DNA of 64,000 bases from Branchiostoma floridae (lineage: Eukaryota > Chordata > Leptocardii > Amphioxiformes > Branchiostomatidae): the NCBI RefSeq assembly GCF_000003815.2, contig NC_049986.1, positions 21,374,191 through 21,438,190 of the forward strand, read 5' to 3'. A program made the translations under genes and the position numbers. Of the stretch, positions 5,099-36,037 are shown one piece after another. Every line of letters begins with the position of its first letter. The first letter of the stretch is position 1. The notes beneath the pieces were generated by a model that saw nothing but the letters and a program-made list of their open reading frames with translations, made no database searches and was not told where the DNA came from.

Positions 5099-5102
5099 CA
5101 AT

Positions 5103-5160: not shown

Positions 5161-5307
5161 CACATTCATGCCCTATCGGGCTTAGTACAGGCATGTAGAT
5201 ATAAATGGTAGTAATACAGTACACATGGTTTCTAATACTAATCTAAAACATGAATTCTAAAACTAGTCTAATACATTTGTTCGGCTTCTTCTCGTTTCTT
5301 AGTAATG

Positions 5308-7859: not shown

Positions 7860-7930
7860 GTTTCTGTACTGTGCGTTTGTATTCCTTGTGATCTCTGTCA
7901 TTCTTCTGGACACGGGTGCAGCTCAGAAAA
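7860..7930 (+). CDS. Gene 1 leader exon (signal peptide-like)
   Basis: After a pyrimidine-rich tract ending tacattcag the exon encodes FLYCAFVFLVISVILLDTG followed by AAQK and ends at a gtaagg donor in phase 1. The hydrophobic core followed by small residues is a good signal peptide. The exon enters with one base completing a split codon, so translation must start in an upstream exon or at a split ATG. The gene 2 leader (30,037) has the same phases. Confidence 0.6.
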
Positions 7931-10900
7931 GTAAGGATAACAATTTTTATTGAAATGAGCTTATACCTGTCTCAACGATGGTCATATTCTTGAAAAAGTA
8001 TTGTGTTATCAGTATCATATATCATTCCTTAGCAGACTGTATGGTCGGGCGTTGGGGCTAACAATCTCTCAGCCGTCTCTGGATCCCGACACGTATAGCC
8101 TATGTTATCATATGTTACATACTATCATGCGCAATATGTTATTCGATCCTGGTACATTAAATATTTTTGTGCAAAGTTTCTTCCTTTAGGAAATCTGAAG
8201 CTTTCCGGTTAAATCTGGTGTCGATCTAAGCTCAGGAAATTGAACATATGACTGATGGCAACAAACTCATGTTTTTTTGTCAAGAATGAAAGTGAAAATT
8301 TTGTCTTTCGAATGTTGTTACTTCCAGGGGGGTGTAGTACTGCACCAATGCCAAATGGCGCCAAAAAACCAAAAGGCTGTAAGCCACCATACGAACACAA
8401 GGAGACATGTCTCTATCAATGCGGGAAACGATACATTGAAAACGGTGGTGACAACGTAAGGACCTGCCGAAAAGGAAGCTGGACTGGGGACGACCTGGTC
8501 TGTGAATGTAAGTACTGTGTGTCTAACCTGGGTGTCAGCCTCCGTCGTGACTGGCTCAGCCCTTTCGCTTATCGTGGTTGGCAAGCGAACGGCTACTGTG
8601 TGTCACGGTGCTTACCATTTGCCGATGGTCCTCATGCCTAGCCTCCAATTTGGAGGCTAGGCATGAGGGCTCCAATGTTAACTGTTTTTTTTACACATAA
8701 ACGAAACATATCATCTAATGATAAATAAAACAACACGTCCCCTTTACGCCAAGACTTGCTTTTGTAATACGAAAATATAAAATGTTATCAAATTTACTTT
8801 CATGTTAGATGCATTGTTCAATCCTAAGCTAAGTCTTTGAAATACTTTTGGGTAGGACGTCTATCTTGCGGAAATCTGAAGCTTTCTAGGTCAACATAGT
8901 GTCGAATTAATAAGAGCATGTGCTGTGATTTTTCCGTCTTCAATGAGCCTGATATTTGTCTTTTCAATGTTGTTTTCTATCAGTGGGACAACAATGCCCT
9001 TCACCACCAAGTCCACCCTCAACTATCCGAAGAAAATGCAGCCCCTCATTCACCCACGGGGAGTCATGTGGCTACGTATGCCGACCCGGGTTTATTCAAG
9101 TCAGTGGCAGCAACGAGAGGACCTGCGATAATGGAACATGGACTGGGACCGACCTGGTCTGTTCTCCAATGGGTACGTCTATCTTACATTCACTGATGCA
9201 GTGATGCTAAGTAAATTCCAAGGGTGTTCATACTGACATTGGATGCTGCTTACATGAGCATGAATTACGATTGTATAGTTGTCTATGGTGGTTTCATGTA
9301 ACTGACGAAACACAACGGGTGTTATTTGAAACGTACTGACCGTTTCCAAAATCATATCCAGTTGCTTGAGTAACTGCGTTTTGGTGTGTCTCTTCTCTTT
9401 CTTTGCAGAATGACGCACAAACATTGAGTATTTCGATTGTTGTTATCAGCTGTTACAGGATCAGGAAATTGCCCTAGACCACCAAGCGTAAGATGCACCC
9501 AGCGGCTTGGCTGTGGGAGACCCTACGTAGTTGGGGCCGCCTGTTTGTACATATGCAGCAAACGTAGACCCAAGTGCGTTCCACAAAACCGCCTCTGGTT
9601 GTTGGTGTGCGTCAACGGGGGGGTCTGGCGGTGGATTGGTGGTAATAGCCCGACATGCAGACGTATGTATGCCATTGTGCCTAGTACTTTTTCACGCTTA
9701 CATTGTTTATCATATATTTGCACATATAACGGGGGCCGCCCTAAGATGGTTCCCGTCGTAAGACGGTACGGATTTTTTGCTGATCTTATTATCCATAAGT
9801 ACACCGTGTTTGTTGCCACTGACTATGCTGATTACAAAGGTAAATAACCAAGTCCATGCACACATAAGTACACCGTGTTTGTTGCCACTGACTATGCTGA
9901 TTACAAAGGTAAATAAACCAAGTCCATGCACACAGCTTTAATTTGCATTCCAAGTATACTTTAACATATTTACTTCATGTTTTTTTAAAAACAGAATTCT
10001 AACAGTAATGTTGACAGTGCTGAATCACTGCGGTCACCGGCCTCTGCGTATTGGCGGCTCGTGTCGCTAACTATACCAACTCTTCCAAGCAGTCAAACAA
10101 CTGCCATGATACACATAAATAAAGCTCCATTAGACACTATGGATATGGGTCTTCAAATGTTTGTTGAGTAGAGAAGCAACCAAAAGGAAGCGACGTAAAC
10201 ATTGCCACCATTGTACTCCCAAGGGAGTGTGGCCGTGAAGGTGGCAGACTAGAGAACGCTCCAAAGATTTATTTGACTGTAACAAAGGATTCGTGCTGTC
10301 TATGAAAATAAGACTTGATAGAGATATGTAGATAATATTTTCATATATAATCAGACAGAGTTTTGTTGATGTTGGCGGTGTCGTTTTTTCGTAATGCTTT
10401 TTATAGTCGGGCATTCACAATCAGTGCATTCAGCCCATTGCCCGTAAAAACATCAGCTGGATTGTTCTAGGTACAGCCTTCCTCATGTGAGACAAGAAGT
10501 ACATACAGTCACGATTTTACTGTCAAAAGAAAGCTAAAATATCATACTATTAATTTTTTCTGTGTACTTGTGTAATTTACCACTTACTTCTGAAGAGAGC
10601 AAAATGTAAAAAAGCGTACCAAGTTAGGCACACTGTCCAGCGTAGCACAAAATTGGAAGGTTACATACACGAAATTGTCTCACAGTGTTTGCCGCTTGTA
10701 ACACGCAGCGCGAAAGGTTCATGAACCACATGAATGCATTTCTTATTCAAGTATGTTGTTCAAATCTATGTGTAAAAAATTCAGTCATCAAAATTTGACC
10801 ACTCTCAGGCAACTAGCGATGGAGCGCCATGAGTTTGAGCGCAAGAAAAAGCGTACCGTGTTGGGGCGCCGGGCACCTCCCGTTAAGAAACAAATTAACT

Positions 10901-13900
10901 AATAGTACGAAATATAGTAGCTCATAGAGTGATAGATAGATGTTGTGTAACTGCTAGGCCAGATGATATTGCAATATGTACATTAGGGATGTGTCAAGCT
11001 TTAAGCCATCCTTTAAGCTATGACGTGTTTAGACGGTGTAAGAAATATTGTGTTATTGCCTGCTAGATGTAACATTCGCAGTGCCATATCCAACCCCTGG
11101 TCCGTTAACTACGTTTGTGTAAGATATGCACCTTGAGGAAATCTTTCCGGTCAAATCTGATACAGAATTAAGAAAATGAACACAAATCGATTAAAAACAT
11201 AGTCTGACAAATCTGTCTTCTCAATGTTGTTTTCAGGGGGAAATCAGTGTCATCCACCGCCACGTCCACCTTGCGCCCGCCATTTTGGCTGTCTCGCACC
11301 TTTCTTCCATTGCGAAGAATGCAGGTACCAGTGTTTGAAAAAGTGCACTGAAGAAGGCGGCGACAGGAAGTTGACATGTGATGACGGAAACTGGAACGGG
11401 ATCCCTCTGGACTGTAAAAGTACGTATCACAGTGCCTAACATTTCCGAACTGCTTTCACGCCTCCATCTCCTCTCCAAGCAGAGGTTGATGGGGAAAATC
11501 GTGACTTTTTTTTCTTGTATGCCGTCTTTTCTGTCGGTGAAGTTAACTGAAAGAAAAGAGTAGCCTCCACCCATGCTTGTAAATGATTTCTTTTGGAAGA
11601 CGCTCAATCCTACGACGCAACTGCAAAGAATCCTTAGATTGCTAGAATCGGCATCCAAAACTGTCCCATATTTTCGATGATGTTTAAAAGCCAGGACTAG
11701 CTAATGCAGGGTTAAAATATTTTGCAATTACCTTTTAAATGTTTCGTGCGCACTGAATTATTATTTCACTGGCAAATGAACTACTATTATTCTGAACCTT
11801 TCCAGTCAAGCCCAATATCGAATTTTAAAAGGTTAAGACGACTATGACTCGTCCGTTGATAATGTAAAACAAGAGCAAAATCGTCTTTATTTGTTTTTGT
11901 CTAGAATGCGTTATAAAATCTTTGAAATGTAATTCTTTATCACTAACAGTGAAATGTCCTGCACCACCAAGGCCACCTAACACCAAACCACCAACCGGCT
12001 GTGACTTCGAGTACACGCATGGTGAGAAATGTACGTATGCGTGCAAAAAGGGGTCCAGTAAAGTTGGCGGCGACAACATGCTGACCTGCGATGATGGAGC
12101 CTGGGCAGGACAACGCCTGATATGCAAAAGTACGTATGTCACGGTGTCTAATATTTCCTAACCGTTTGTATGCCTCCATGTATATTAAATATCCTCCTTG
12201 TTTATAAACCGTCGAGACTCCTTAGATTGCTAGTTTATAATCTGCTCAAATTTCCCCTTAAGCCACGACTTTTTTACGCATTGATATTAAAGATATAACG
12301 TTAGTGTTCTTATCTGTCAGATGTCATATTCAATCACTGATCTGAGTCTTTCCGGCCACACCTCATATCAAAAAACATGAGTATGACTCATTGGTTGACA
12401 ATGTAGACAAAGACCAAATTCGTGTTTTCTTTCTAGAATGTATAACACTTCGAAAATTGTGCCTTTGGAATGTTCCATTTCGCCATTGCCAGACTATTGT
12501 GAAACTGAAGCTTTCCGGTCAAACCTGGTATCACCTCACCTCACCTATCACTTGACCCTTGACTTATGTTGGTGCACCATGACTCCATCCACTATTCTCC
12601 CCCACCGCTCTGTCCTCTGCTGCTCTCATGGCTTCGGCTAAACTCAAACCAGTCCACTCTCTGATGTTCTCTTCCCATCTTTTCCCCTGTCTTCCTTTCT
12701 TCCGGCGTCCTGGGACTGTCCCTTGTAGTATGTTTTTTACTAGCACATACAACCTTGTCACATGAACGAACCATAGATCTCAGCATTCGTTTCATTACAG
12801 TTGTTATCAAGTTGCCATGTGGTCATATGGCTTGTGCTACTTTGTCACGGACATCCTCGTTTGTGAAGCAGTCTAAGCATGTAATGCCCAGGATTTTCCC
12901 GTATCATCTTGTTTCCATTGAAATGATTTTTGTAACTCGGTTGTCGATGTCCATGTTTCGCAGCCATGTAAATGAATTGACAGAGTTCAACAAGAAACAA
13001 GAAATAGCCATGACTTCAAGTACCAGAGTTGATGTTTTCGAAAATTCGTATTTTCCCAGAACTATCGTCGAGTAGAATTTGTTATCATCAAGCACAGTAG
13101 GGGCATCTTCTCTGGATAGTTTTAAAGAACAATTGCAGATAGATGTGCAAAAGTTAGGTGTGACGGGATGTTCAGTGTAATATAACCAGCTGCTGCCGCG
13201 CCGCGTGCCTGCGAAGCTGGTGTGTTATGCCGAACGGCGGTTATACCGGCTATATAGATACAGATACAGAGTTAGGGCACGCATGAGGTTGATTTTGGAT
13301 CTTAGACATATGTCCTTATCCTTCCGTATATATGGTGTTGAGCCTAGCTGGTGCGGCTACTGTCTGTGCAATCCTCGCTGAAGTCCTTCGTCATATATGA
13401 CTGAACCAAGATACTTGAATTTTGGCCCTTCTTCTAGCCATGTTGTACCTAGTTTTATTGTGGCATTAAAGCCGTGAGCATTGTTATCACCTCCGTGAAA
13501 TGTCATGGAGGTTATATTTTACCCTGCGTTTGTCTGCGTCTTAATTCTCTCTAAGAAGATATTAAACAAGTGTGGGGGACAGAAGGTATCTCTGACGCAC
13601 TCCGACTGTCGTTAGGAGCCATCTTCCAATACTGCCATTTCCTCTTTCAGTTGATGTTAGGTTACAAGACTGGTCACATGTACCTTCCAGCTAGCCTGAG
13701 CATCCTGGCCTATCTTTGTATTACAATCTTCTTGAATTATTTCAACATCCTTTTTAGCTACTTTGTTTATTGTCTCTTGGAGATGGGAGTAAAAGTCTTC
13801 TATTACGCTATCTATCATCATAGTCATTTGTAGGTGACATGTAAACTAAGACTTCTTGTTTTGTTCTTTTCTAGAATGGGTTAGAATGCAAATTATGTGC

Positions 13901-16900
13901 GTGTTTTAATGTTCTTTTCTATCACTACCAGAGGACTGTGTTGATGCACCAGACCCAGACCATACGAATAGAGCTGGCTGTGCCGCCCCCTACATACATG
14001 GCGAGGTTTGTAACTACCAATGCAAAGTCGGGTACACTGAAGACGGCGGCGACAAAATGCGGACATGCGATGATGGAGCCTGGACTGGGAACGATCTGGA
14101 CTGTAAAGGTACGTATGTCACGTGTCTATAAAGCTACCAGTTCCTCAAAGTTTTCCTGCGTTCATTAACCTGGATTCGATCATCAGTAGTAACAAGCGAA
14201 AAGTTTGAGCCAGTGGTTACTATGGAGGACCGCACCCAGGCTATCCAATGATGCCATACATGTGCATTTTCTTAACCATCGCGAACCTTAGATTGTCAGA
14301 ATAGGAATCATAATCTGTCCCCAATTTTCCCACGCAGTGTTAGAATGTTGGATTAGTACTTGTTGTAATTTGCGCAACGCCTTATCCCGTCAACTTGTCT
14401 TTGATCTACTAAATCTGAAGCTTTTCAGTCAAACCTGATATGGAATTCTCAAAAATTACCATCAGCATGACTCGTCAATTTAACTAACTTATTGCTTTGT
14501 TCGTATCTAGAATGCGCTCTACTTTTGAAAATTATGTGTTGGAATGTTCTTTTCTATCACTGGCAGAGAACTGTGATGATGCACCAGACCCAGACCATAC
14601 GGTTCGAGCTGGCTGTGACGACCCCTACATACATGACGAGGTTTGTAACTACCAATGCAAAGTCGGGTACACTGAAGACGGCGGCGACAAAATGCGGAAA
14701 TGCGATGATGGATCCTGGACTGGGAACGATCTGAACTGTAAAGGTACGTATGTCACCCTGCCTACCATTTCCTAACTGTTTTACGCCTCCAATCATGCCA
14801 TGTATGGCTCGTTCTCATTTAAATGTCGAAATGCTGTCGCCTGACCTTACGCCTTGATATGGACTCCAGGAGCAAAGTATAGACAACATCACTGGTTCCT
14901 TCGTTTTTCCACAACGCCGGTAATGTTTTACAAAAGATGCACAACAACATTCGTATTGGTTGATGGCTTTGAAGGCTATTATAGCCTCGGGTGGGATTTC
15001 AACCCCTAAAAAATGGCTGTCTCCTGAGAAGAAACGAAGAATTCAATTAGTAGCCAAAAATGTAACAATTCTGTTCCCAGAATGATTGTTCGGTAGGTGA
15101 AACCAGCTACCCAGGCCCTCTGCCCGATCACGTCAGATCCCTCCTGTCACTGATCTTGAAGGCTGTGTGAGGTGGTTTATGCCTGTCGCCAAATTCGGTA
15201 ACAAACGTTACCACCATGAGTACGATGGTTGACACGGTTGTATTATCCACGTATAAGACTAGAAATGACCATTTTTGTGACGCTATACAGTTTTTCTGGC
15301 TTTCTAAAGAAACAAGAAAGGGTTCTTGACTGTCATTTGTTTCCCACCTTGCTTAACAAAATGTTGTACAGAAATGACTGCAACAAACGTTACCATTGTT
15401 CGATGCTGTCTAAGCTTTCTATTTGACCTGGTGTAAAAAGCTGCCCACTTTTTAAATGTTCCTAGGGACGTCCACTTATACCTAAATGATGTAGTCAATA
15501 AGGTGAGTCCTTTCGAAGAAAACAGGGTAAAGTCTACTGTTGTAACAAACGTTACTGGTAACGTTTGTTACCTGCCCTGTAATGCATTACCAATGGGACC
15601 GAAAATAATAAGTTGCCATTTTTTGGCTATGGTTAAAAGAGGAATTTTCCTAAACAACCAGGTAGTTTTCACTGAAAATAAAGCCGATTTATTTTTTGAC
15701 CCAAAATATGCCATTTTCGACATTTCAATGAGAGCGAGTGGTATGTGAAATAATGATGATGATGAGTGGTTCATTCGATTAAAATACATCGCAGCATTTG
15801 AAGTTAAATTTCGCAAAGGTTAGGAAATCTTAGATCGATTCAAATCGGAATTCGAATCTGTTCCAAGTTCTGCCTTAACCCAAGACTTGTTGCAAATATA
15901 GAATACAACACGGTGTATTCCGTATCACCCGAGGTGCCAGCCCGACGGCGGGAAGGATCGCCCGAAGGCCGGAGGGTGATCCGACCCGCGGGAGGGCTGA
16001 GACCGAGGGTGATGCGGAATACACCGTGTTGTATTTTATTTATGTCATACCCACCTGAGAAAACACATATTTCGATGCGAAATGCACCAGAAGTTGAGAA
16101 AATATTGTGTCCTCGAACAAAAGATTGTAACAACAGCAATTCTAACGTCTGAATCCGGTATTCGAATTGTCAACCGTGCCGTATTCGGCCCGTTCGAAAT
16201 AGCTCAATTTACTCGAAGGAAGCCTGTGTGATGCAACTTAGAACCGGAACACCCGTATCGAACGTTTTCGCGTCACAGGTATGACATAATGTTAAATATG
16301 ACCTGTTAAAACTTGAATGTTGCATAATCAATCCTTTTGTCCATGAACTACTACTCTTTCCTGTCAAAAGTACCATCAGATATGGCTCTTCAGGTTGAGA
16401 AAGTAAACCACGAATGCCTTCTGTTCTTTGTTTAACATACAACAAACCTTTCGGGTGTGTTATTTCTTTGGAATGTTCTTTTCTATCACTACCAGAGTGT
16501 GATCCGCCACCAATGCCACAGAACACGATTATAGTCGGCATCTGTAATCCTCCCTACCTGCAAGATCACATTTGTAACTACGCTTGCGATTCCGGATACA
16601 GTTATGACAGCGGTGACGAATACCTCACCTGCATTGATGGAGACTGGGTCGGGGACGAACTGGTCTGTAAAAGTAGGTGTATGTCTATATGTAGCTACTA
16701 GTTCCTGACTGTTTGCCTCCATTCATTCTCCATGTACCATCATCACTACGTAGTATTAACCGCTTAACAAGCGAACAGATTGAGCCAGTGGTTACTATGG
16801 AGGACCACACCCAGGCTATCCAATGATGCCATACATGTGACTTTTCTTAACCATCGGGACACCTTAGATTATCAAAGTAGGAATCAGAATCTGTCCCCAA

Positions 16901-19900
16901 TTCTCCCACGCCATAACGCAGTGTTAGAATTTTGGATGTTAGTAATTGTTGCAACCTGCGCAACGCCTCATCCGGGCAACTAGTCTTTGATTTACTAAAT
17001 CTGAAGCTTTCCAGTCAAACCTGGAATGAAAAATAACAACCAACATGACTCGTCGACTGACGTGCAGACAACTAAGACTAAATTCTTGTTTTGTTCTTAT
17101 CTAGAATGCGTTAGACTTTTAATTATGTGTTGTAAATTTCTTTTCTATAACTGCCAGAGGACTGTGATGATGCACCAGATCCAGACCATGCGGATATAGA
17201 TGACTGTGAAGACCCCTACACACATGGGGAGGTTTGTACTTACCAGTGCTGGTCCATGTACACTGAAGACGGCGGCGACAACACGCGGGAATGCAATGAT
17301 GGAGCCTGGACAGGAACCGATCTGGAATGTAAAGGTATGTATGTCACGTGCCTATAAAGCTACCAGGTTTATCCGGGCAACTAGTCTTTGATTTACTAAA
17401 TCTGAAGCTTTCCAGTCAAACCTGGAATGAAAAATAACAACCAGCATGACTCGTCGACGGACATGCAGACAGCTAAGACTAAATTCTTGTTTTGTTCTTA
17501 TCTAGAATGCGTTAGAATACAAATTATGCGTTTGAATGTTCTTTTCTATCACTACCAGCTCGGACTCATTACTCGTCGATTTACAACTAAATTCTTGCTT
17601 TATTCTTATCTAGAATGCGTTATTTATTAGACTTTTAATTATGTGCTGTAATATTCTTTTCTATCACTACCAGAGGACTGTGTTGATGCACCAGACCCAG
17701 ACCATACGAATAGAGCTGGCTGTGCCGCCCCCTACACACATGGGGAGGTTTGTAACTACCAATGCAAAGTCGGGTACACTGAAGACGGCGGCGACAAAAT
17801 GCGGACATGCGATGATGGAGCCTGGACTGGGAACGATCTGGACTGTAAAGGTACGTATGTCACCCTGCCTACCATTTCCTAACTGTTTTACGACTCCAAT
17901 CATGCCATGTATGTGAAATAATGATGATGATGAGTGGTTCATTCGATTAAAATACATCGCAGCATTTGAAGTTAAATTTCGCAAAGGTTGGGAAATCTTA
18001 GATCGATTCAAATCGGAATTCGAATCTGTTCCAAGTTCTGCCTTAACCCGAGACTTGATACAAATATAGAATACAACACGGTGTATTCCGTATCACCCGA
18101 GGTGCCAGCCCGACGGCGGGAAGGATCGCCCGAAGGCCGGAGGGTGATCCGACCCGCGGGAGGGCTGAGACCGAGGGTGATGCGGAATACACCGTGTTGT
18201 ATTTTATTTATGTCATACCCACCTGAGAAAACACATATTTCGATGCGAAATGCACCAGAAGTTGAGAAAATATTGTGTCCTCGAACAAAAGATTGTAACA
18301 ACAGCAATTCTAACGTCTGAATCCGGTATTCGAATTGTCAACCGTGCCGTATTCGGCCCGTTCGAAATAGCTCAATTTACTCGAAGGAAGCCTGTGTGAT
18401 GCAAGTTAGAACCGGAACACCCGTATCGAACGTTTTCGCGTCACAGGTATGACATAATGTTAAATATGACCTGTTAAAACTTGAATGTTGCATAATCAAT
18501 CCTTTTGTCCATGAACTACTACTCTTTCCTGTCAAAAGTACCATCAGATATGGCTCTTCAGGTTGACAATGTAAACCACGAATGCCTTCTGTTCTTTGTT
18601 TAACATACAACAAACCTTTCGAGTGTGTTCTTTCTTTGGAATGTTCTTTTCTATCACTACCAGAGTGTGATCCGCCACCAATGCCACAGAACACGATTAT
18701 AGTCGGCATCTGTAATCCTCCCTACCTGCAAGATCACATTTGTAACTAGAGTTCGGCGACCTCATACCTCCATGAAAATTTAGAGCTTTCCTAAATTTAA
18801 TGAAATTGACTAACACATAGACATAATTTATGCATGGTGTTGTTCATCATTGACTAACGTACACATGTCACAATTATAAAATTCCCATTATTAATCATAA
18901 AGCGGTTTTGCAATTTTTACATAAATTATGCAAATAAGCTCCTCATTACCATATTTGGTATCTGCTTATACTCCACCTATCATAATTAACATGTGTTACA
19001 TTTATTGAAGTCCAGTTATTGAAAATAATGGAATTATACAATTTCCTCATTAATTATGCAAATTAAGTCCTCGTTTGCATAACATGTATACCATTATGAA
19101 CATCTTTGTCTAAGGTACCCGCATGCCTAATATGATGCCAATCTGTCAATCCTTTCTGCAGTTATCCGCTTTGGAGTGTCTTGAAAAAAACGCCCCTGCA
19201 GTTCCACAACTAAATGTTAGAGGGCTGAAACTTGCTCCACTTGGTCATGGCACTAAAAGCTATCTACCACCTAAATGTCAAGACCATAGCATGTCTGGAA
19301 CAAGAGATACATTGAAAAAAACTGCTATGATATAATATTCTCATTAATTATGCAAATGTACTCCAATTTTGCATAATTAGTATCTTATCTTGTACAACAT
19401 TGTCTAAGGTACCTACATACCAAAAATCATGAAAATTCGTTGTTCCCTTCTTGAGTTATCGTCTTCAGAAGTTTTTGACAAAAATGCCCCTGCTATCCCA
19501 AAATTAGACGCTAGGGGGCCCAAACTTACGTCATTTCTTCCTGAGCACAAGAGCTATCTAATACTCAAAAATCGTGGCCATAGCTTGTTCAGAACACCGA
19601 AATAGCAAAACCGGAAGTTGCGCTGCAGTACCAAGGGGAGCCGCTAGGGGGCCCAAAATCTAATCATTTCCAGCTTTCATCACACACTACCAACACACCA
19701 AGTATGAAACCAATCCACCCAGCCGTTCTTGAGTTATTTTGTTTACACACACACACACACACAAACACACAAACGCGGGGTAAAATATAACCTCCATGAC
19801 ATTTCATGGAGGTAACTACGCTTGCGATTCCGGATACAGTTATGACAGCGGTGACGAATACCTCACCTGCATTGATGGAGACTGGGTCGGGGACGAACTG

Positions 19901-22493
19901 GTCTGTAAAAGTAGGTGTATGTCTATATGTAGCTACTAGTTCCTGACTGTTTGCCTCCATTCATTCTCCATGTACCATCATCACTACGTAGTATTAACCG
20001 CTTAACAAGCGAACAGATTGAGCCAGTGGTTACTATGGAGGACCACACCCAGGCTATCCAATGATGCCATACATGTGACTTTTCTTAACCATCGGGACAC
20101 CTTAGATTATCAAAGTAGGAATCAGGATCTGTCCCAAATTTTCCCACGCAGAGTTAGAGTATTTGATTTTAGTATTTGTTGTAACCTGCGCAACGCCTTA
20201 TCCGGGCAACTAGTATTTGTCTACTAAATCTGAAGCTGTCCGGTCAAACCTGGAATGGAATAATGAAAAAGGACAACCAGCATGACTGGTCGATTGACAT
20301 TCTTGTTTTGTTCCTTTCTAGAATGCGTTAGACTTTTAATTATGTGTTGTAATGTTCTTTCTATCACTGCCAGAGGACTGCGATGATGCACCAGAACCAG
20401 ACCATGCGGATATAGATGGCTGTGAAGACCCCTACACACATGACGAGGTTTGTACCTACCAGTGCTGGTCCATGTACACTGAAGACGGCGGCGACAACAC
20501 GCGGAGATGCGATGATGGAACCTGGACTGGGAGCGATCTGGACTGTAAAGGTATGTATGTCACGTGCCTATAAAGCTACCAGGTCCTGACAGTTTGCCCT
20601 TGTTCATTAGCCTGGGTTCTATCCTCAAAAGTAGCTTAACAAGCGAAAAGACACGAGAAGATTGGGCCACTGGCTACTATGGAGGACCGCACCCGTACGC
20701 AGGGTATCCAATGATGCCATACATGTGAATTTTCTTAACCATCTGGAAACATTAGAGTAGGAATTATAATCTGTCCCAAATTCTCTGACGCAGCGTTAGG
20801 ATGAGTAGCAGTTGCAACAAGTACAACGTCTTATCCGGCCAACAAGTCTTTTAACTACTAAATCTGAAGCTTTCCCGTCAAACCTGGAATGGAATTCTGA
20901 AAAATTACAACCGGCATGACTCGTAGATTGACATGCAAACTAAGACTAAATTCTTGTTTTGTTATTTTATAGAACACGTTGAAAATTATGTTTTGGAATG
21001 TTCTTTTCTATCACTACCAGAGGACTGTTATGATCCACCAGACCCAGCCAATGCGGATAGAGCTGACTGTGCCTATCCCTACACACATGGGATGGTATGT
21101 AACTACCAATGCCAAACCGATTACAATAAAGTCGGCGGCGACGACACGCTGAAATGCGAAGATGGAACCTGGACCGGAAGCCCACTGGAGTGTGAAAGTA
21201 AGTATGTCACGGTACCTTTCAGTTCCTAACTGTTTACACCTCCATTCATGCCATGTATGTGTATTTTTGGGAGTGAAGGGCCTTAGCTCCTATTTTGCTC
21301 CAATCCTTAGATTGCTAGAGAAATTTCTCACTGCGTTAAAATATTGCATTGTTGTCTGTAAGATGTATCACCTAATGCTTTATCCATTCCATTACTAAAT
21401 CTGAAGCTTTCCAGTCAAAACCACGAGTTCAATTAAAGACTAATGAACATGAGTATGGAACCGTTATTCGGTTGATATGTAAGATAGGGCCAAATTCTTG
21501 TTTGTTTTCTGTCTAGAAAGCCTTAAACTTGACAATTGTTTATGTATATGAAACTGTTGCTTTCTATCATTGCCAGTGGAGCCGACCGAGGAAATGCCGA
21601 AAAGTACGTATCTTTTTTAATTGACTTTCTGTAATAGTGACTGGGACTAACCTGATATGCTCAGATAAAGGCATTATCACTATTAATCATTTCGCAACCG
21701 ACAGGAACCTTTAAAGCACTAATCTAAACTCATAAGCCAGTCATCTACCTCGCCCGTCAGGCCATGTAGATTTGATTATATGGATGAAATCCTCTGGGAA
21801 TAAAAGATTGATGCGAGCGTGCGAATAAAAAAAAAGAATATAGTATTCCGAACAATAGATTCCTCATTTTTGTTCTTTGTTCTATTGATGAGAACTATAA
21901 TTTTACCCATCGTATTTTTTAGTGTTCGAGACTGACTAGAGGTCCCGTGCGAAGTTTTGTGGCAGGACCGAGAACTGTTGCTCCAAGGATTGTGGACGCA
22001 CCTGTTTAAAAATCTTCTATAAGGGCAAGTCAATAAAGATCTGACTTGAACCACTTCCGGTTATTGCAAACGGCTGAATTTGCACGTGTGTCATAATACA
22101 TACATACTAGTATTTTCATGGGTCAAATACTTATTTTCATTTCTGAGCGTAACTCTTAGCTGCCATGGCCGAGTGAGGTGTGGCAGTGAAGACAGTTGAA
22201 TCTGAGCGGTCATCAGGTCAGCAGTGTGTTCGTGTAATGCTTACTTAAACTTATTTTCCTTGGACTAAGCGAGACGAAACATGGCCAACGTATTGGTGTT
22301 TTACAACCACACAAGTCTACGTAAGCATTTGGACCCTAGTGACCGCTATGAATTATAGCTTTACTATTACAGATCACTCCATAAAAGCAGCTGGAAAACT
22401 GTAAAAGTCAAGATACGAAAACAAACGTGTTACTTATAGAGATCTGTAGTCTTTTTCAACATGTGCAATTTCAGTCCCCAACAATGATTGGAA
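7860..22493 (+). CDS. Secreted multi-sushi (CCP) protein, gene 1 (spliced, 5' end not found)
   Basis: Proposed exons: 7860-7930 (leader), 8328-8507, 8984-9172, 9459-9662, 11237-11419, 11950-12129, 13932-14108, 14567-14743, 16496-16672, 17158-17334, 17674-17850, 18664-19910 (interrupted), 20374-20550, 21021-21197, 21577-21603, 22475-22493. Each CCP is one exon with AG before and GT after, entering and leaving in phase 1, so modules can be gained, lost or skipped without frameshift. Most modules have six cysteines, as in selectin repeats, rather than the usual four. The leader suggests secretion or surface display. CCP modules generally bind proteins or glycans; I cannot name a ligand or family member. 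The initiating ATG exon and the exact 3' terminus are not established. A shorter paralogue lies at 30,037-35,225. Segments between modules contain shared intron blocks, showing repeated tandem duplication. Confidence 0.7.
8328..8507 (+). CDS. Gene 1 CCP module 1
   Basis: Acceptor ttacttccag, donor gtaagt, phase 1-1. Six cysteines in the selectin-type spacing: the first in CSTAPMPNG, then GCKPPY, a close pair TCLYQC, and TCRKGSWTG before the final VC. The W followed by a terminal cysteine is the sushi hallmark. Confidence 0.8.
8630..8668. repeat. Perfect 39-bp palindrome in intron
   Basis: Two 19-bp arms, cctcatgcctagcctccaa and its exact reverse complement, are separated by one base. It lies about 120 bp after CCP module 1. 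Confidence 0.9.
8984..9172 (+). CDS. Gene 1 CCP module 2
   Basis: Acceptor ttttctatcag, donor gtacgt, phase 1-1. Six cysteines: CPSPPSPP, KCSPSF, the pair SCGYVC, TCDNGTWTG, and a final VC followed by SPM. It has four more codons than the later modules. Confidence 0.78.
9459..9662 (+). CDS. Gene 1 CCP module 3 (divergent, eight cysteines)
   Basis: Acceptor gctgttacag, donor gtatgt, phase 1-1, 204 bp. It begins NCPRPP and ends WRWIGGNSPTC. The body has the pair ACLYIC but the normal CxxGxW centre is replaced by VCVNGGVW, and two extra cysteines occur. Its closest relative in the window is the first CCP of gene 2 (30,446-30,649), also 204 bp and with a WWIGG motif near the end. This suggests the two genes shared this module before separating. 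Confidence 0.7.
9793..9931. repeat. Two-copy ~70-bp tandem duplication
   Basis: The stretch beginning cataagtacaccgtgtttg and ending ccaagtccatgcacaca occurs twice back to back, nearly identically. It is intronic, after CCP module 3. Confidence 0.9.
9932..11236. other. Gene 1 intron, nothing recognised
   Basis: Long intron between CCP modules 3 and 4. No reading frame with domain character. The intronic word aaatctttccggtcaaatctg near 11,140 is the conserved pre-exon block also seen ahead of later modules. Confidence 0.5.
11237..11419 (+). CDS. Gene 1 CCP module 4 (nine cysteines)
   Basis: Acceptor tgttttcag, donor gtacgt, phase 1-1. It starts GGNQCHPPPRPPC and ends TCDDGNWNGIPLDC. The usual pair is HCEECRYQC, with another cysteine in KKCTEEGGD, making nine in all. 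The odd number implies a free or intermolecular cysteine if the prediction is right. Confidence 0.75.
11950..12129 (+). CDS. Gene 1 CCP module 5
   Basis: Acceptor tcactaacag, donor gtacgt, phase 1-1. Six cysteines: CPAPPRPPN, GCDFEYTHG, KCTYAC, TCDDGAWAG, and the terminal IC. A clean selectin-like sushi pattern. Confidence 0.82.
12440..12510 (+). pseudogene. Truncated CCP exon edge
   Basis: The usual pre-exon block (ttggaatgttcc ... cattgccag) is followed by only about 15 bases resembling a CCP start (tattgtgaaact). The sequence then switches into the intronic block gaagctttccggtcaaacct. A module was apparently lost here by recombination between intron repeats. Confidence 0.5.
12564..13835 (-). 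pseudogene. Decayed LINE (endonuclease/RT polyprotein) in gene 1 intron
   Basis: Reading the minus strand from 13,835 downward gives recognisable ORF2 pieces in shifting frames. They are an endonuclease-like piece with KKDVEIIQEDCNTKIGQDA, then LFNIFLERI of the RT, FKYLGSVIYDEG, a piece with NEDVRDKVAQAI, and the C-terminal ILQGTVPGRRKKGRQGKRW and REWTGLSLAEAMRAAEDR. Stops and frame changes interrupt it, and a short foreign hairpin (13,488-13,540) lies inside. It is oriented against gene 1. This is a different lineage from the RT fragment at 6,492-7,559. Confidence 0.65.
13488..13540. mobile_element. Hairpin terminus shared with the exon-inserted element
   Basis: cctccgtgaaatgtcatgga followed by ggttatattttaccc is the reverse complement of the right end of the element at 18,749-19,811 (ggggtaaaatataacctcca). 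It sits inside the decayed LINE. Confidence 0.5.
13932..14108 (+). CDS. Gene 1 CCP module 6
   Basis: Acceptor tatcactaccag, donor gtacgt, phase 1-1, 177 bp. Six cysteines: EDCVDAPDPDH, AGCAAPY, VCNYQC, TCDDGAWTG, and the terminal DC. Almost identical to module 10 (17,674), differing at only a few bases, so the copies are recent. Confidence 0.85.
14567..14743 (+). CDS. Gene 1 CCP module 7
   Basis: Acceptor tatcactggcag, donor gtacgt, phase 1-1. Six cysteines: ENCDDAPDPDH, AGCDDPY, VCNYQC, KCDDGSWTG, and the terminal NC. Close sister of modules 6 and 10. It is acidic at its start. Confidence 0.85.
14790..15740. other. Gene 1 intron with palindromic 'aacaaacgtta' motifs
   Basis: No coding signal. 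The word gtaacaaacgttac occurs at about 15,189 and 15,541. At 15,541-15,573 it is followed by its exact reverse complement, giving a near-perfect snap-back hairpin. A weaker copy lies at about 15,380. Confidence 0.6.
15902..16035. mobile_element. GC-rich hairpin element (copy 1)
   Basis: The ends aatacaacacggtgtattcc and its exact reverse complement form 20-bp terminal inverted repeats. Complementarity extends further inward with few mismatches. The GC-rich core (cgacggcgggaagg) contrasts with AT-rich flanks. An identical copy lies at 18,070-18,203 because both belong to the duplicated block. Probably a MITE-like element. Confidence 0.7.
16496..16672 (+). CDS. Gene 1 CCP module 8
   Basis: Acceptor tatcactaccag, donor gtaggt, phase 1-1. 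Six cysteines: ECDPPPMPQN, GICNPPY, ICNYAC, TCIDGDWVG, and the terminal VC. Its duplicate at 18,664 carries a transposon insertion. This copy shows the uninterrupted target site (tttgtaactacgc). Confidence 0.85.
17158..17334 (+). CDS. Gene 1 CCP module 9
   Basis: Acceptor ataactgccag, donor gtatgt, phase 1-1. Six cysteines: EDCDDAPDPDHAD, DDCEDPY, VCTYQC, ECNDGAWTG, and the terminal EC. Duplicate partner of module 12. The exon start is very acidic, suggesting calcium or basic-ligand affinity (inference only). Confidence 0.85.
17490..17562 (+). pseudogene. Orphan splice-acceptor block without a CCP exon
   Basis: Repeats the conserved pre-exon intron block (gttcttatctagaatgcgtt ... tatcactaccag), but the exon body is missing after a few bases. 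The block repeats again shortly afterwards in front of module 10. Confidence 0.55.
17674..17850 (+). CDS. Gene 1 CCP module 10
   Basis: Acceptor tatcactaccag, donor gtacgt, phase 1-1. Same protein as module 6 apart from PYTHG instead of PYIHG. Six cysteines, TCDDGAWTG centre. Confidence 0.85.
18070..18203. mobile_element. GC-rich hairpin element (copy 2)
   Basis: Same as 15,902-16,035, offset by exactly 2,168 bp; copied with the surrounding block, not by independent transposition. Confidence 0.7.
18664..19910 (+). pseudogene. Gene 1 CCP module 11, interrupted by a transposon
   Basis: The exon starts after tatcactaccag at 18,664 and matches module 8 through tttgtaact. At 18,749 foreign DNA begins and the exon resumes after 19,811 with gtaactacgcttgcg, ending at gtaggt. 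Reading on in frame gives AAC then a TAG stop at the junction. Without the insertion it would be 177 bp, phase 1-1, identical in character to module 8. The exon could be skipped in frame; if retained, the protein stops about 28 residues into this module. Confidence 0.8.
18749..19811 (-). mobile_element. ~1.06 kb retroelement inserted in CCP exon, with target-site duplication
   Basis: Flanked on both sides by gtaacta (6-7 bp, ambiguous by one base). The intact site exists at 16,577. The left end gagttcggcgacctcatacc resembles the LINE tail ends at 3,780 and 5,308 (actagagttccacgaacac). The interior has cattaattatgcaaat blocks and a CA tract, and the right end is a hairpin, cctccatga/tcatggagg. 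There is no coding capacity, so it is a tail-only or non-autonomous copy of the LINE family, minus-strand orientation. Confidence 0.75.
20374..20550 (+). CDS. Gene 1 CCP module 12
   Basis: Acceptor tatcactgccag, donor gtatgt, phase 1-1. Six cysteines: EDCDDAPEPDHAD, DGCEDPY, VCTYQC, RCDDGTWTG, and the terminal DC. Duplicate partner of module 9. Confidence 0.85.
21021..21197 (+). CDS. Gene 1 CCP module 13
   Basis: Acceptor tatcactaccag, donor gtaagt, phase 1-1. Six cysteines: EDCYDPPDPAN, ADCAYPY, VCNYQC, KCEDGTWTG, and the terminal EC. Last CCP of the gene. Confidence 0.83.
21577..21603 (+). CDS. Gene 1 27-bp linker exon
   Basis: The same pre-exon block as the CCP exons (tttctatcattgccag) leads to a 27-bp stretch encoding EPTEEMPK before gtacgt, phase 1-1. 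It adds an acidic spacer without disturbing frame. The conserved upstream block suggests it is the remnant of a CCP exon. Confidence 0.5.
21940..22044 (+). pseudogene. Possible WAP (four-disulfide core) half-domain
   Basis: An open stretch between stops reads KFCGRTENCCSKDCGRTC, matching the WAP C-terminal spacing C-x5-CC-x3-CGxxC exactly. The N-terminal half of a WAP domain is absent, and the frame is wrong for splicing from the preceding phase 1 exon, so it is either a relic or chance. Confidence 0.3.
22475..22493 (+). CDS. Gene 1 19-bp micro-exon (conserved in gene 2)
   Basis: Between gtgcaatttcag and gtgagtcagg lies a 19-bp exon encoding PNNDW with two spare bases at each end (phase 1 in, phase 2 out). 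The paralogous exon of gene 2 (35,201-35,225) is 25 bp, encodes PNINNDW, and differs by exactly two codons. Flanking intron sequence is conserved for several hundred bases. The next exon is uncertain. Confidence 0.5.
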
Positions 22494-22499
22494 GTGAGT

Positions 22500-23230
22500 C
22501 AGGACAAGTAATGATTGAGCAACCCGAGTATGGTTAGAATAGACAGCAATAATAATCCTCTGTATAGCTTCCTTTTGTGATTGCCACAGAACGCTAATTT
22601 TCAGAAATGTGCTTTGTATGTTGTTAAACTAGAATGTTTTTTCTTAGATTAGTTATAAGCTCCTGTTGATCGACTGGAAACTATAACGCAAATTGTACTG
22701 ATATTTGTCATTATACCCACCGTGTAGAGAATTTATAGCATAGCGTGTTGAAGACAAATTTATCTTTCTTTAGGCTGGTGTCAATTATGTACTGAAACGC
22801 AATACTATTTCATAGTGATATTACCTGCGAATTGAATATTTAAGAATCATTTAATCTATATTTAGTCAGTACTGCTACTTACTGTTTGTGTGATGTGGTA
22901 AAGACAATTGTTTTACTTCCTTATAACACTGTACATTTGAACGTTTTTGCGGGACTTATTTTTGCGGCTAGTCGTCGAAATAGATCTTCACGGTGTTTTA
23001 CGTTTGCAGTTTAAAGTAATAAGTGGCAAGATAGTCGAATTATGTAATTGTTAATTCGCGACAACATACTTATTCATACATATATAGTGCAGAGGTCACT
23101 GCAAGAACAATACCATCGAGAACATGTCAAGATTTTCAGTATGTAGCAATAGACATGGTCACCGGAGTAACTAAAAATTTACATATGGTTTGGTCGATGA
23201 AGGTTACACATCCAAGTAATAAGAAACTGC
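22500..23230. other. Gene 1 3' region, shared with gene 2
   Basis: Similar to 35,226-35,560 (for example gattgccacagaacg, aaatgtgctttgtatgttgt). A short terminal exon after gattgccacag is conceivable: it would continue the micro-exon frame as KTLIF, with a stop within 15 codons, against KTLIS-stop in gene 2. The low conservation makes this doubtful. Confidence 0.35.
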
Positions 23231-23236
23231 AAATTT

Positions 23237-23665
23237 TTGGAAAATCATATCCAGTTGTTTCAGTAACTATTTTTTGGCGTTCCAAAATCATATCCAGTTG
23301 TTTCAGTAACTACTTTTGGGCGTTCCAAAATTATATCCAGTTGTTTCAGTAACTACTTTTTGGCGTTCCAAAATCATATCCAGTTGTTTCAGTAACTACT
23401 TTTTGGCGTTCCAAAATCATATCCAGTTGTTTCAGTAACTACTTTTTGGCGTTCCAAAATCATATCCAGTTGTTTCAGTAACTACTTTTTGGCGTTCCAA
23501 AATCATATCCAGTTGTTTCAGTAACTACTTTTTGGCGTTCCAAAATCATATCCAGTTGTTTCAGTAACTAATTTTTGGCGTTCCAAAATCATATCCAGTT
23601 GTTTCAGTAACTACTTTTTGGCGTTCCAAAATCATATCCAGTTGCTTGAGTAACTGCTTTTTGGC
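23237..23665. repeat. 43-bp minisatellite, ten copies
   Basis: Unit gcgttccaaaatcatatcca followed by gttgtttcagtaactactttttg, 43 bp, highly uniform. The last copy changes to gttgcttgagtaactgc, the form found singly or in pairs elsewhere (9,346; 32,135; 35,571). Confidence 0.95.
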
Positions 23666-23771
23666 TTACATATAGTTTGTTATCTCAATTTCCACCACCA
23701 AGGTCTAAAATACTTCACGAGTTTATTTGACGATTGTACGAAAATGTACGGACTTACTTGTTTTACTCGGT

Positions 23772-23777
23772 AATAAA
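23772..23777 (+). terminator. Putative polyadenylation signal of gene 1
   Basis: aataaa within the context aataaagtgggctgcgggac, which is conserved at 35,752 (aataaagcgggctgcgggac) downstream of gene 2. Confidence 0.45.
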
Positions 23778-24139
23778 GTGGGCTGCGGGACAACTGTGTT
23801 TGTCTGAATGCGTTGTTGGTATGTAATAACGAGGAAGTAGGAAATTCTTGTGATCAATTTTATTATGCTATAAGACTAGATTTTACCTAGCCCGACATCC
23901 TATTTCTAATCTGAGACTTTTAAGACAAGGGTAAGCAAACATTCTGTCTTCAGAATCGAGTACTGTGACCAAAAACGCACGAGTCATGAGCCTTGTTTTG
24001 TGAAGAACTTATAGTAAATAAAAAAATGTATACTTGTCAAGTCTCTTTCGTCCTCATCCCAGATGTTTATGGGGAGGACAGAAGATGCTTGGCATGCTAC
24101 AATAGATAACAAAGAAGTATACATCAACCACTGGTCAAC

Positions 24140-30036: not shown

Positions 30037-30110
30037 GATCATCATTTGCCTCCTGTTCTATGTCACCCTTGTGCTGTATGTGGTAACCGTCGGCGGAAGG
30101 AAAGTTACCA
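30037..30110 (+). CDS. Gene 2 leader exon (signal peptide-like)
   Basis: Acceptor ttctgtttcag, donor gtaagt. It encodes IIICLLFYVTLVLYVVTV followed by GGRKVT: a hydrophobic core and a small/polar end. It enters with one base of a split codon and leaves in phase 1, exactly as the gene 1 leader. Confidence 0.58.
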
Positions 30111-33100
30111 GTAAGTCTTGGAAATTGTTGTATTTGAACAGGAGAATATGACACCTACTAGTACTTGTGCAAGTTAACTAGTTTGGTGTGATGTGTATGT
30201 GGGTATGAAGTATATACTGTCCGGCTACTAAAAATGATACAGATACAGAATGTGGCAACATTGTGAAAGATTGCTCCATGCCCTCTTGGAGTGTTGTGTT
30301 CCACAATTTTTGATTTTCTGTCTGCTCATGTCTGTCCGTCCGTTCATCCAGCCGAAAAGCCACGTCGAGAGTTCTATGCGTCTCTCTTTTTCTTCCGCGA
30401 GAGAAAGTAGTCCGAGAGTACTAACGAAAGGCATATACCTTGCAGAAAAGTGCAAGCCTTTGGCGTTTCCAAACACGACAAGGGAGTGCGACCAGTCCCC
30501 AAATGCCGAAGGCCGCTACCCCAAAGGGACCGTCTGCACATTTGACTGCGTGGAGGGGTGTGTGAAGGATAAGGGAAGCAGAAGGAGGGAATGCAAGGTC
30601 AAGGGAAGGACAAAATGGTGGATCGGAGGCCAAGGACTTAAGTGTCTTTGTGAGTCATGATAACATTAGAATAGTATAAGGTAGGACACAAGTCATTTTT
30701 CAGTGGCTCTGGAGATCTTTATTGAGTCTTTGACGTACAAATACAAGATGAAAGACAGACAAAAGTGCGCAAGGTAAGACATATTAAAAAAAGAACAATC
30801 GTGTGCGTCGGACTGCTGAAATACAAACTTTTAAAATTCGTTACACGTATTGCACAAGAAGATGGTAAAACTAATGCATTGCACTAATTGAATATTGCAC
30901 TATTTCATGTAACGTTACAACTATAATTACCAGTTGCTTGAGAAGAGTCCAAGGGGTTTTTCCCACCCAAATAGATTTCTTGCACAATATATAACATATG
31001 AAGTGCATCTAAGTAGTACCATACCTACCGATTCTAATTTATTTCAGGACATCATAACATTTTTTCTAGGCCTTATCAACCATGGCATTGTCCATTTACT
31101 CACAGGTAACCCATGTGACAGTGCACCCAGCCATCCCGAAGGTGCCACCATTGACTGTGCTTCAGACCAGGCCTCCTACCCAGCCGGGCATGTTTGTAAC
31201 ATCACCTGCCCTGTCGGTTCGTCAGGGGATACGAGGAAAGTCTGTACGAACGGCCACTGGACTGGAGAGGATCTAGTGTGTGAAGGTACCTATTTTGTGT
31301 TTTTGTTCTTTACGCCAGGTAGAAGTTACTCAAGCAACTGGACATGATTTTCGAAACGGTCAGACCTTTCAGGTAGAATCCTTTATCTTTCGTCAGTGTC
31401 ACTGATGAAAGATAGTGTGTGTGTTTTACACCTCAGAGGTTTAACGCAAAAGTTCTCTAATACCCTTGTCACATTATCCACGATCTTCGGGCGTATCAAT
31501 GGAAGATGGGCCATATCTACAATCGACAAAGGGTTGCGCGTACGTATTTTTCACCTGAAAACCGTCTCTGTTACATATCACGTACATCATTGTACCTTGT
31601 ACAATTGTTGTGCAATAAAGTCATTATTATAAGCGAGGCTCGGGCGATTGTCGCAGAACCGTCGTCCGATCGATTTTCGTCAAATGTAACAGGGGTATAA
31701 CGGCGTCCAGGTTCAACTGCATCTTAATATACAGAACAGTAGTGCAAGGTCTAGCAGACGTTGCTTAACAACCGTGAGTTTTTCCGCACACTCAGACAAC
31801 CCATGTGACAGTCCACCGAGCCACCCCGAAGGTGCCACCAGTGACTGTGGTCATGACCAGCCCCCCTACCCAGCCGGGCATGTGTGTAACCTCACCTGCC
31901 CTGTCGGTACATCAGGGGATGCGAGGAAGGTCTGTGAGAGAGGCCAATGGAATGGAGAGGACCTAGTGTGTGAAGGTACCTATTTTTGTGTTTTTGTTTC
32001 TTGTTTACGCCAAGAAGCAGTTACTCAAGGCTCAATCAACTGGATATGATTTACTCAAGCAATTACTCAAGCACTGTGTCACTGACGAAAAATAGTAACC
32101 TACGTGAAACGTACGTACCTGAAACGTCTACCCCTTTCCGAAATCATATGAAGTTGCTTGAGTAATTGAGATTTGGCGTATCTTATTACCTGGATGTCTA
32201 ATCTTCATCTATTTTTTTGTTGTTGTTTTATTTGCGATGCAAAGAAAGGTTTTACGCTTTGCGATTTTTGCATTGTAAGCACCAAAAGACAAACACAGAG
32301 CGGAATACAGCCATTTAATTCACGTACCTTAAAATAAACATTAGTAGGAATTAGAGTCGATTCCGAGTCACCGAGAGGGTTTTGAAATAATATTTGTAAT
32401 AAGTTTGAACTATTTCCTGATAAAAGCTCCTTGACTATTCTAAGCAAAAGAATATTTCAGTCACTGAAGTTCTAAATTGTTCAAACAATTGAAAATGAAA
32501 GTTTGAACATGTTTGAACCTGTCTATATATGTTGGAAACATTGGAAAATTAATGGTACAAATATCTCTTTATTTAGAACAATTTAGAAGCATCTATGTGT
32601 TTTTGTTATTGTTGGAACATGTGATCATATGTTCCAACAATTTGCGTCATTTTTTTCCTCCATAAAAACTTTTATTACCCCAATAAACAAAGCTGCTAAG
32701 ATGGTCCTTTTGTTTGGGTATTGTATTTTTAGATTTTCTCTAGTAGACACTAGTGGCTCTTTTGTGAAAAGCTGTCAGACAGACACAATTTCCTGCACTT
32801 GGCAGGGATGTGTGAATTGCCCTCTTCCCAGCCCACTGACCCAGTTTCATCATTTTGTTTCACTGTTCGAACATATGATCACATGTGATCACAAATGATG
32901 AATCTATGTTGGAACAGTTTAGAAACTAACAGAAATAATGGATTTGATGTTAGAAATGTTTCTAACATGTATGAACACTATAGAAAATATCTAGAACATC
33001 ACACAGATATTATAAATAGTTCTAAACAGTTACTTATCACATTTAGAATGTTATAAAGATTTTCAAAATGTTCGAACAAAAGGCAAGAAAGACCCTCTTG

Positions 33101-35225: not shown

Positions 35226-35570
35226 GTGAGTCAGGACAAGTAACGATTGACCAACCCGAGTATGATTAGAATAGACAGCAATCATAATCCTCTGTATAGC
35301 TTCATTTTGTGATTGCCACAGAACGTTAATTTCTTAAGATCTTTATAAATGTGCTTTGTATGTTGTTTAACTAGAATGCCTTTTCTTAGTTTAACATACA
35401 AAGCTCATTTTTAAGGCTGATGTCAATTATGTACTGAAGGCCAAGACTACATGTTATCTGCAAATTCAGTATTTAAGAATCATTTGATCTATATCTAAAT
35501 TTAGTACTGTTACTTACTGCTTGTGTGATGTGGCAAAGGCAATTATTTTACTTTCTTGGATTTTGGAAAA

Positions 35571-35650
35571 TCATATCCAGCTGCTTGAGGAACTGCTTTT
35601 TGGCGTTCCAAAATCATATTCAGTTGCTTGAATATTTGCTTTTTGGCGTA
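35571..35650. repeat. Two copies of the minisatellite unit
   Basis: ggaaaatcatatccagctgc and ttccaaaatcatattcagtt: the unexpanded version of the ten-copy array at 23,237. Confidence 0.8.
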
Positions 35651-35751
35651 TATATATAGTTTGTTAGCATAATTTCCACCACCAAGGTCTAAAATACTGT
35701 ACTAGTTTATTTGACGATTGTCCGAAAATGTATGGACGGGCTGATTTTACA

Positions 35752-35757
35752 AATAAA
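35752..35757 (+). terminator. Putative polyadenylation signal of gene 2
   Basis: aataaagcgggctgcgggac, the same context as at 23,772. Confidence 0.45.
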
Positions 35758-36037
35758 GCGGGCTGCGGGACATCGTTTTGTGTCTGGATGTTCTTTGGGT
35801 ATGTATTTACAAGTAATAACTGACAAACATGATACACTGACTAGCTCTCTCAGTTAACATATCACCAGACACAAACTATTTTATTCAGTTACTGTTACTC
35901 ACTCATTCAGCCCTGAAAGGTATTGAAAGAGTCTACATAATCTGCCCCAAATCTGCTTAGAAATAATTCATTCTAACCATTCACTACTTTATCAGACAAG
36001 AGAAACAACAAGACGGTATTATGAATAGTGACCTTTT

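Follow-up and report, generated by a model that had tools for sequence, protein, structure and literature searches.

The closest described systems to the locus analyzed here are proteins with strings of sushi (CCP) modules. In factor H and factor XIII B, a signal peptide is followed by a run of sushi modules, and these modules mostly have four Cys residues. Selectin modules have an additional Cys pair and their disulfides link the first and fifth, second and third, and fourth and sixth Cys residues. In the nematode Heligmosomoides polygyrus, TGM proteins are reported to be secreted strings of CCP domains that have four or six Cys residues each and can gain new binding through exon modularity (PMC10516467). 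The part considered of a report on complement genes with CCP domains is of no help in placing the modules described below (PMC11312191). For lancelets, the consulted part of one study reports that exon turnover occurs genome-wide, that phase 1-1 exons are favored, and that coding exons are rearranged more often than in the other animals examined (PMC4284660).

The window is the entire 64,000-nucleotide stretch of the Branchiostoma floridae genome analyzed here, and positions are counted from its first nucleotide. Sushi-like exons occupy 13 positions at 8.3–21.2 kb and six positions at 30446-34847, all on the + strand (table 1). Exon content, splice signals, and flanking sequences suggest that these are probably two tandem genes, A and B, with 13 and six module positions, respectively, predicted exon joins, and putative secreted products. 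The first-pass annotation described thirteen six-Cys modules and a family that ends at 22.5 kb. Its 13 positions stand, but A3 is degenerate, A4 has nine Cys residues, and A11 is split by a repeat, leaving 10 that follow the strict pattern, and the six exons of gene B are beyond the proposed end. Modules of the window are like those of plain Sushi/CCP (PF00084) in fold, the four canonical Cys residues, the Trp, and a single symmetric exon, and unlike them in that most have an extra Cys pair and part of the array is strongly acidic. As in factor H and factor XIII B, a run of sushi modules comes after a putative signal peptide, and the predicted products are apparently secreted. The resemblance to TGM, also secreted, multi-CCP, and diversified through modular exons, is offered as an analogy only. 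Each TGM domain spans two exons and, in the part of the report considered, the family is a mimic of cytokines in a parasite, and the likeness is presumably convergent (PMC10516467).

Table 1. Features of the two predicted sushi genes, with positions in the window. A slash marks an exon boundary.
Feature	Position	Strand	Description
Gene A signal-peptide-like exon	7860..7930	+	FLYCAFVFLVISVILLDTGAAQK; acceptor TTCAG/G, donor A/GTAAGG (phase 1)
Sushi exon A1	8328..8507	+	Six Cys, phase 1-1, non-acidic; Pfam Sushi 19.3 bits, under cut-off
Sushi exon A2	8984..9172	+	Six Cys, phase 1-1, non-acidic; closest relatives in the C14 cluster
Degenerate sushi-like exon A3	9459..9662	+	Eight Cys, zero acidic residues; no match to Pfam Sushi
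Sushi-like exon A4	11237..11419	+	Nine Cys; no Pfam match
Sushi exon A5	11950..12129	+	Six Cys, non-acidic
Sushi exon A6	13932..14108	+	Six Cys, acidic
Sushi exon A7	14567..14743	+	Six Cys, acidic
Sushi exon A8	16496..16672	+	Six Cys, acidic; unbroken copy of split exon A11
Sushi exon A9	17158..17334	+	Six Cys, net charge -16
Sushi exon A10	17674..17850	+	Six Cys; identical to A6 at 175/177 bases
Exon A11	18664..19910	+	Copy of A8, interrupted by repeat insertion
Inserted dispersed repeat in A11	18749..19811	+	1,063 bases, flanked on either side by the 7-bp target GTAACTA
Sushi exon A12	20374..20550	+	Six Cys, net charge -15
Sushi exon A13	21021..21197	+	Six Cys, acidic
Candidate terminal exon, gene A	22373..22404	+	Acceptor CTATTACAG/; phase 1, predicted to read ..HSIKAAGKL, stop
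3' block of gene A	22331..23836	+	Counterpart in gene B, 83, 78, and 81% across three pieces
Gene B signal-peptide-like exon	30037..30110	+	IIICLLFYVTLVLYVVTVGGRKVT; acceptor TTTCAG/G, donor A/GTAAGT (phase 1)
Sushi-like exon B1	30446..30649	+	Seven Cys before donor (donor read by eye), phase 1-1; no Pfam match
Sushi exon B2	31106..31285	+	Second subtype, six Cys, N-glycosylation sequon; no Pfam match
Sushi exon B3	31796..31975	+	Second subtype, six Cys, N-glycosylation sequon; no Pfam match
Sushi exon B4	33503..33682	+	Second subtype, six Cys, two N-glycosylation sequons; Pfam 14.7 bits, under cut-off
Sushi-like exon B5	34009..34173	+	Five Cys, first Cys substituted, net charge -17; no Pfam match
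Sushi-like exon B6	34671..34847	+	Seven Cys, first Cys substituted, net charge -15; no Pfam match
Candidate terminal exon, gene B	35095..35150	+	Acceptor CTATTACAG/; phase 1, predicted to read ..HYIKAAVKGNFKVQKQK, stop
3' block of gene B	35050..35816	+	Homologous to 22331-23836; AATAAA at 35752

Several lines of evidence identify the repeated units as sushi modules. The strict six-Cys pattern (C..C..C-x3-C..C..W..C) matches 13 times across the window, at 10 of 13 positions of gene A (8.3–21.2 kb) and three of six of gene B (31.1–33.7 kb), and has no match in any of 100 windows simulated with a first-order Markov model. Profile-HMM searches, one of the checks proposed in the first-pass annotation, recognize only part of the set. 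Among 20 ORFs scanned with Pfam Sushi (PF00084), which include both halves of the split A11, 10 are over the cut-off, two are below, and eight have no match. Those over the cut-off are nine whole modules and one half of A11; A1, A3, A4, and B1–B6 are not among them and are linked to the array by a module HMM or by the six-Cys pattern. The module HMM recovers six pieces outside its training set at E values of 2e-4 or better, and the AlphaFold model of one module has a sushi fold (pLDDT 94.9).

The extra Cys pair had been called selectin-type, which is right by position because the third Cys is three residues ahead of the fourth, the same arrangement as in SCR1-2 of E-selectin. Spacing between Cys residues is 13 or 14-9-3-14-11 in the 10 strict modules of gene A, 13-12-3-11-11 in B2–B4, and 12-12-3-13-12 in E-selectin SCR1 (PDB chain 4c16). 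The shared position, together with E-selectin 4c16 at rank 27 in the fold list (TMq 0.78), could reflect descent, with six-Cys modules derived from a selectin-like adhesion gene. We consider such kinship very improbable, as modules of factor H and CD55 match equally or better in sequence and fold, no exon of lectin or EGF type is evident next to the array among the selected ORFs scanned, and an extra Cys pair could have an independent origin. Also unlike selectins, the window has no membrane-like terminal frame near the array ends. E-selectin is absent from the best 50 of 88 matches of the B3 model and, in the sequence search with the profile, from the best 60 of 92.

By sequence, the top matches in PDB are to factor H, followed by CR2, factor XIII B, and CD55. 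Combined with a signal-like exon followed by sushi modules only, in the style of factor H, these matches raise the possibility that the products are fluid-phase complement regulators whose sushi modules bind C3b and host surface glycans. This is quite unlikely, in our view. The matches reflect the many sushi modules per chain rather than a specific site, and modules of the array have an extra Cys pair that, to our knowledge, is absent from those of factor H.

Phase-1 donors are present after the last Cys at all 18 module ends scanned, and all 11 exons measured have AG and GT ends and a length divisible by three; acceptors of exons beyond those 11 were read by eye. Modules are thus single phase 1-1 exons, as had been described. 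We ruled out phase 1-1 exons as a hallmark of the array since they are ordinary in this genome. In 20 control sushi exons, hand-picked from 150 scored Pfam hits and therefore a set that favors the four-Cys model, 19 are phase 1-1 in a loose test (which accepts any correctly phased AG and GT within 20 bases) and none is six-Cys.

Sequences at the edges of the arrays bear on the number of genes. The signal-peptide-like exons of genes A and B have the same frame shape, an AG/G acceptor, and a phase-1 donor. Their first G could perhaps finish a split start codon (AT/G), and a scan for signal exons that required an ATG within the same exon yielded no candidates. A scan for hydrophobicity across 1–8.3, 21.2–31.1, and 34.8–37 kb identified both signal-like exons and one other candidate, at 22616; because it requires a phase-1 donor, the scan is blind to a terminal membrane exon. 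Downstream of each array, the homologous 3' blocks have an AATAAA in common and a 14-base acceptor stretch that is identical in both and occurs nowhere else in the window. The candidate terminal exons are two short frames inside this duplicated block, which could be a mere segmental duplication. A 43-bp minisatellite in the 3' block of gene A (23241-23665) has ∼10 copies, and the homologous sequence at 35567-35649 has ∼2. None of the 45 acceptors at 21.2–24.0 kb or the 27 at 34.8–37.1 kb opens a membrane-like phase-1 terminal frame. The same scan found such frames behind 6 of 93 acceptors at 24.0–29.9 kb; opposite-strand acceptors, used as a yardstick, gave 3 of 32 and 1 of 34. That no membrane-like terminal frame is near the array ends speaks, weakly, for secretion.

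On the basis of the second signal-like exon, the six additional modules, and the duplicated 3' block, we infer two tandem genes. The same features counter a single gene of 13 modules as a full account of the locus. Alternatively, the sushi exons at 8.3–34.9 kb could be joined in one long gene that encodes one protein of up to 19 modules. All module exons are on the same strand and in the same phase, with the frame surviving any join, and module types are shared between the halves, e.g., the DNA of B6 is 71–73% identical to that of A6 and A7. We nonetheless regard one long gene as doubtful, since between or behind the halves are a second signal-like exon, at 30037-30110, and the duplicated, AATAAA-containing 3' block. 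The 30 kb upstream and 10 kb downstream of the window have no module of this kind, with weak matches only (E of 0.41 or worse).

Within gene A, the history of modules can be read from duplicated sequences. Positions 15741-16580 and 17909-18748 are 98.9% identical over 840 bases, the product of a tandem duplication that recently copied the beginning of exon A8 together with its upstream side. The likeness between A8 and A11 resumes beyond the insertion (90.4% over 803 columns), and the 171-base module in A11 is identical to A8 over its first 83 bases and over its last 95. The inserted repeat has at least 32 other full-length copies that are up to 98% identical (54 matches listed and 40 of 4,611 candidates scored, with 33 that span its full length including the one in the window). 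Parts of a tandemly repeated stretch at 3780-6603 of the window are 67–77% identical to this repeat. Exons A6 and A10 are nearly the same, as table 1 shows, whereas the introns upstream of them have 10 differences in 61 aligned bases, the contrast that conversion limited to the exon is expected to produce. The proposal that the array is built for rapid gain and loss of modules gains from these findings, the near-identical duplicate being a recent gain and the repeat insertion in A11 being damage. Since exons are symmetric (phase 1-1), a damaged exon is predicted to be skippable without breaking the frame.

Acidic modules differ in sequence around a constant core. Across six of them, 33 of 58 columns vary and the six Cys residues and the Trp are invariant (hypergeometric p = 0.0016), consistent with a fixed scaffold and a surface that is free to vary, and perhaps is pushed to. 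Some pairs have a pairwise dN/dS greater than 1, e.g., 2.37 for A6 and A7. Under M0, omega is 1.32 and does not differ from 1 (p = 0.40), and M1a versus M2a gives p = 0.09, all from a custom script with a single starting point; a claim of significant positive selection was dropped on account of these values. An omega of ∼1.3 also fits relaxed constraint. In the seven acidic pairs with >300 aligned intron bases, divergence is significantly greater in exons than in introns in four (one-sided Fisher p = 0.003–0.026; p = 0.29–0.58 in the remaining three). Of the eight acidic pairs whose introns are shorter, five have greater divergence in exons and three have less, and the two pairs of gene B with comparable introns are one in each direction. 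Pairs in these comparisons are non-independent and conversion is a confounder. A comparison of flanks by local alignment was discarded because it is biased toward conserved stretches.

The off-pattern exons A3, A4, A11, B1, B5, and B6 raise the possibility that decay is under way in part of the locus. Taken further, the locus could be mostly a cluster of pseudogenes in which fast change reflects lost constraint. One exon is split by a repeat, one is degenerate, and A4, B1, B5, and B6 have lost or extra Cys residues, and an omega indistinguishable from 1 is in line with such decay. However, 10 of 13 positions of gene A retain the six Cys residues, Trp, an open frame, and both splice sites, the Cys and Trp columns are invariant amid the many that vary, and a phase 1-1 exon can be skipped with the frame kept. 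We therefore consider a locus made up mostly of pseudogenes to be unlikely.

The locus is also not alone in the genome. We searched the 513.4-Mb assembly of 431 contigs with module A6 as the query. A first look gave 433 candidates, and the 150 that were scored all match at E values of 4.2e-5 or better. The 79 with E <1e-8 fall into 23 clusters, window included (40-kb gap), and A6 thus has close matches in at least 22 clusters outside the window. We opened 20 stretches that touch 11 of these 22 clusters and two weaker places. They include 74 profile hits, of which 52 have the six-Cys pattern, in a form slightly looser than that used for the window (F or Y allowed for W, and wider gaps), and 64 have phase 1-1 sites by the loose test. 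Six-Cys modules are present in 17 of the 20 stretches and in all 11 clusters opened, indicating a large family of which the array is one branch. The module type is therefore not unique. In a quick tree that took in 66 of the 74 related modules (those of 50 residues or longer), 11 of 16 window modules are in one clade (support of 0.71) and four are in another (0.83); A2 has its closest neighbors in the C14 cluster. We found no literature on a six-Cys sushi family in lancelets, which is weak evidence of absence as subscription journals were mostly outside the search.

Signal-like exons provide a second point of comparison with relatives. Twelve are found in 10 of the 20 stretches, and in 10 of 12 the tail is rich in Arg or Lys (four or more); the other two have two, and the tails of genes A and B have one and two, respectively. 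These 12 exons were chosen and their tails cut by eye, and the remaining hydrophobic hits with phase 1, many of which were artefacts of GT repeats, were excluded. The arginine tail is often a run, e.g., AWRRRRRRRRR, and in several loci consists of a tryptophan and up to nine arginines. Arginine-tailed signal-like exons precede six-Cys sushi exons in L041, L045, L042, L047, L043, L044, L035, and L052. As read by eye, the hydrophobic stretch directly follows AG/G in 7 of 11 relatives; L038 deviates, and L043 (twice) and L044 are ambiguous. By eye, the signal exons of the window are like those of relatives, with weaker kinship for gene B. No terminal exon common to the window genes and relatives is among the matches listed. 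In summary, the six-Cys sushi clusters of this genome are like the window genes in module type, phase, and, by eye, signal exon. Several of them are arginine-tailed, unlike the window genes, which have no arginine run, and A6–A13 are far more acidic.

Some relatives are associated with other domains. In L048, they adjoin CUB exons, and in L033 and L039, they are beside weak matches to WSC and F5/8 type C that are under the Pfam cut-off. Recurring ORFs, one of them weakly like F5/8 type C, are near sushi exons in L039, L040, L049, and L050, which are perhaps shuffled discoidin-sushi genes. An open frame of 2,423 aa with many Pfam sushi matches (G000 C15:11345529-11351813) appears to be an intronless sushi array.

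Charge distinguishes part of the window from its relatives. Net charge ranges from -7 to -16 in the seven intact module cores of A6–A13 and from -5 to -17 in B2–B6. In relatives, it ranges from -5 to +7 (mean of +1.9) in the 52 six-Cys modules and from -6 to +10 in all 74; the p value of 1e-5 for the difference overstates certainty because modules are related. Acidity does not extend to every module, as A1, A2, A4, and A5 are close to neutral, at -1 to +4. Likewise, the earlier statement that all modules are very acidic at their starts does not hold for the frames at 8333, 8995, 11248, and 11955, which have 0–1 D/E in their first 20 residues. On these values, acidity looks like a local, derived shift rather than a trait of the whole array or family.

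The neighboring gene is Notch, as had been noted. It is on the minus strand at 37202-60713, with ankyrin repeats, LNR, and NOD recognized at 37.2–45.6 kb and, by eye, strings of EGF-like repeats at 55.5 and 60.6 kb. The ankyrin end of the gene matches a chain named Notch 1, which we take to be mammalian, at 118.5 bits and 1ot8 (Neurogenic locus Notch protein), presumably from fly, at 111.4 bits. With the sushi genes on the + strand and Notch beyond them on the minus strand, the genes are convergent (tail to tail). On the other side of the arrays, a 355-aa open frame at 6495-7559 on the minus strand has a motif on which we take it to be the end of a non-LTR retrotransposon; Pfam searches with this ORF and three others returned no matches. 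Upstream of the window, a 632-aa open frame on the minus strand (L001:3814-5709) is internally repeated and, by eye, like leucine-rich repeats. No immune gene context was seen around the array.

We think it fairly likely that genes A and B are tandem paralogs for secreted sushi rods that are a local branch of a large family, with roles in adhesion or innate recognition. Predicted transcripts would begin with the signal-peptide exon, continue through single-exon sushi modules, and end in a short tail. In most modules, a third Cys pair at the selectin position would form an additional disulfide, and modules together would make a rod that is stiff and multivalent. Modules may be added, removed, and homogenized with the frame intact, through unequal crossing-over and gene conversion at exon level, both acting on symmetric exons, and residues between the fixed Cys residues would change fast, here toward strong negative charge. 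A recognition role is plausible, and the rods would most likely function in extracellular adhesion or innate recognition at secreted surfaces, where they would engage putative ligands via charged, repeated, low-affinity contacts. More speculatively, and at a rather low probability, the relatives as a whole could be a large, unrecognized family of secreted six-Cys sushi rods that has an arginine-rich leader and has diversified through exon turnover in the manner of a recognition repertoire, and in which the branch beside Notch was reversed in charge, possibly for binding between acidic and basic members or to different cationic targets.

New here are a probable second gene, the repeat-interrupted exon, the family with an arginine-tailed signal exon, and the local reversal of charge, the last being a concrete and testable feature. 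Gain of modules, conversion, and damage by a transposon are all visible within one 27-kb stretch. Even as a functionless local array, the locus would cleanly document exon turnover, which is already reported genome-wide for lancelets (PMC4284660). A family that is real and expressed would be a test case for how a recognition-like repertoire arises in a basal chordate from symmetric exons, and not from somatic recombination.
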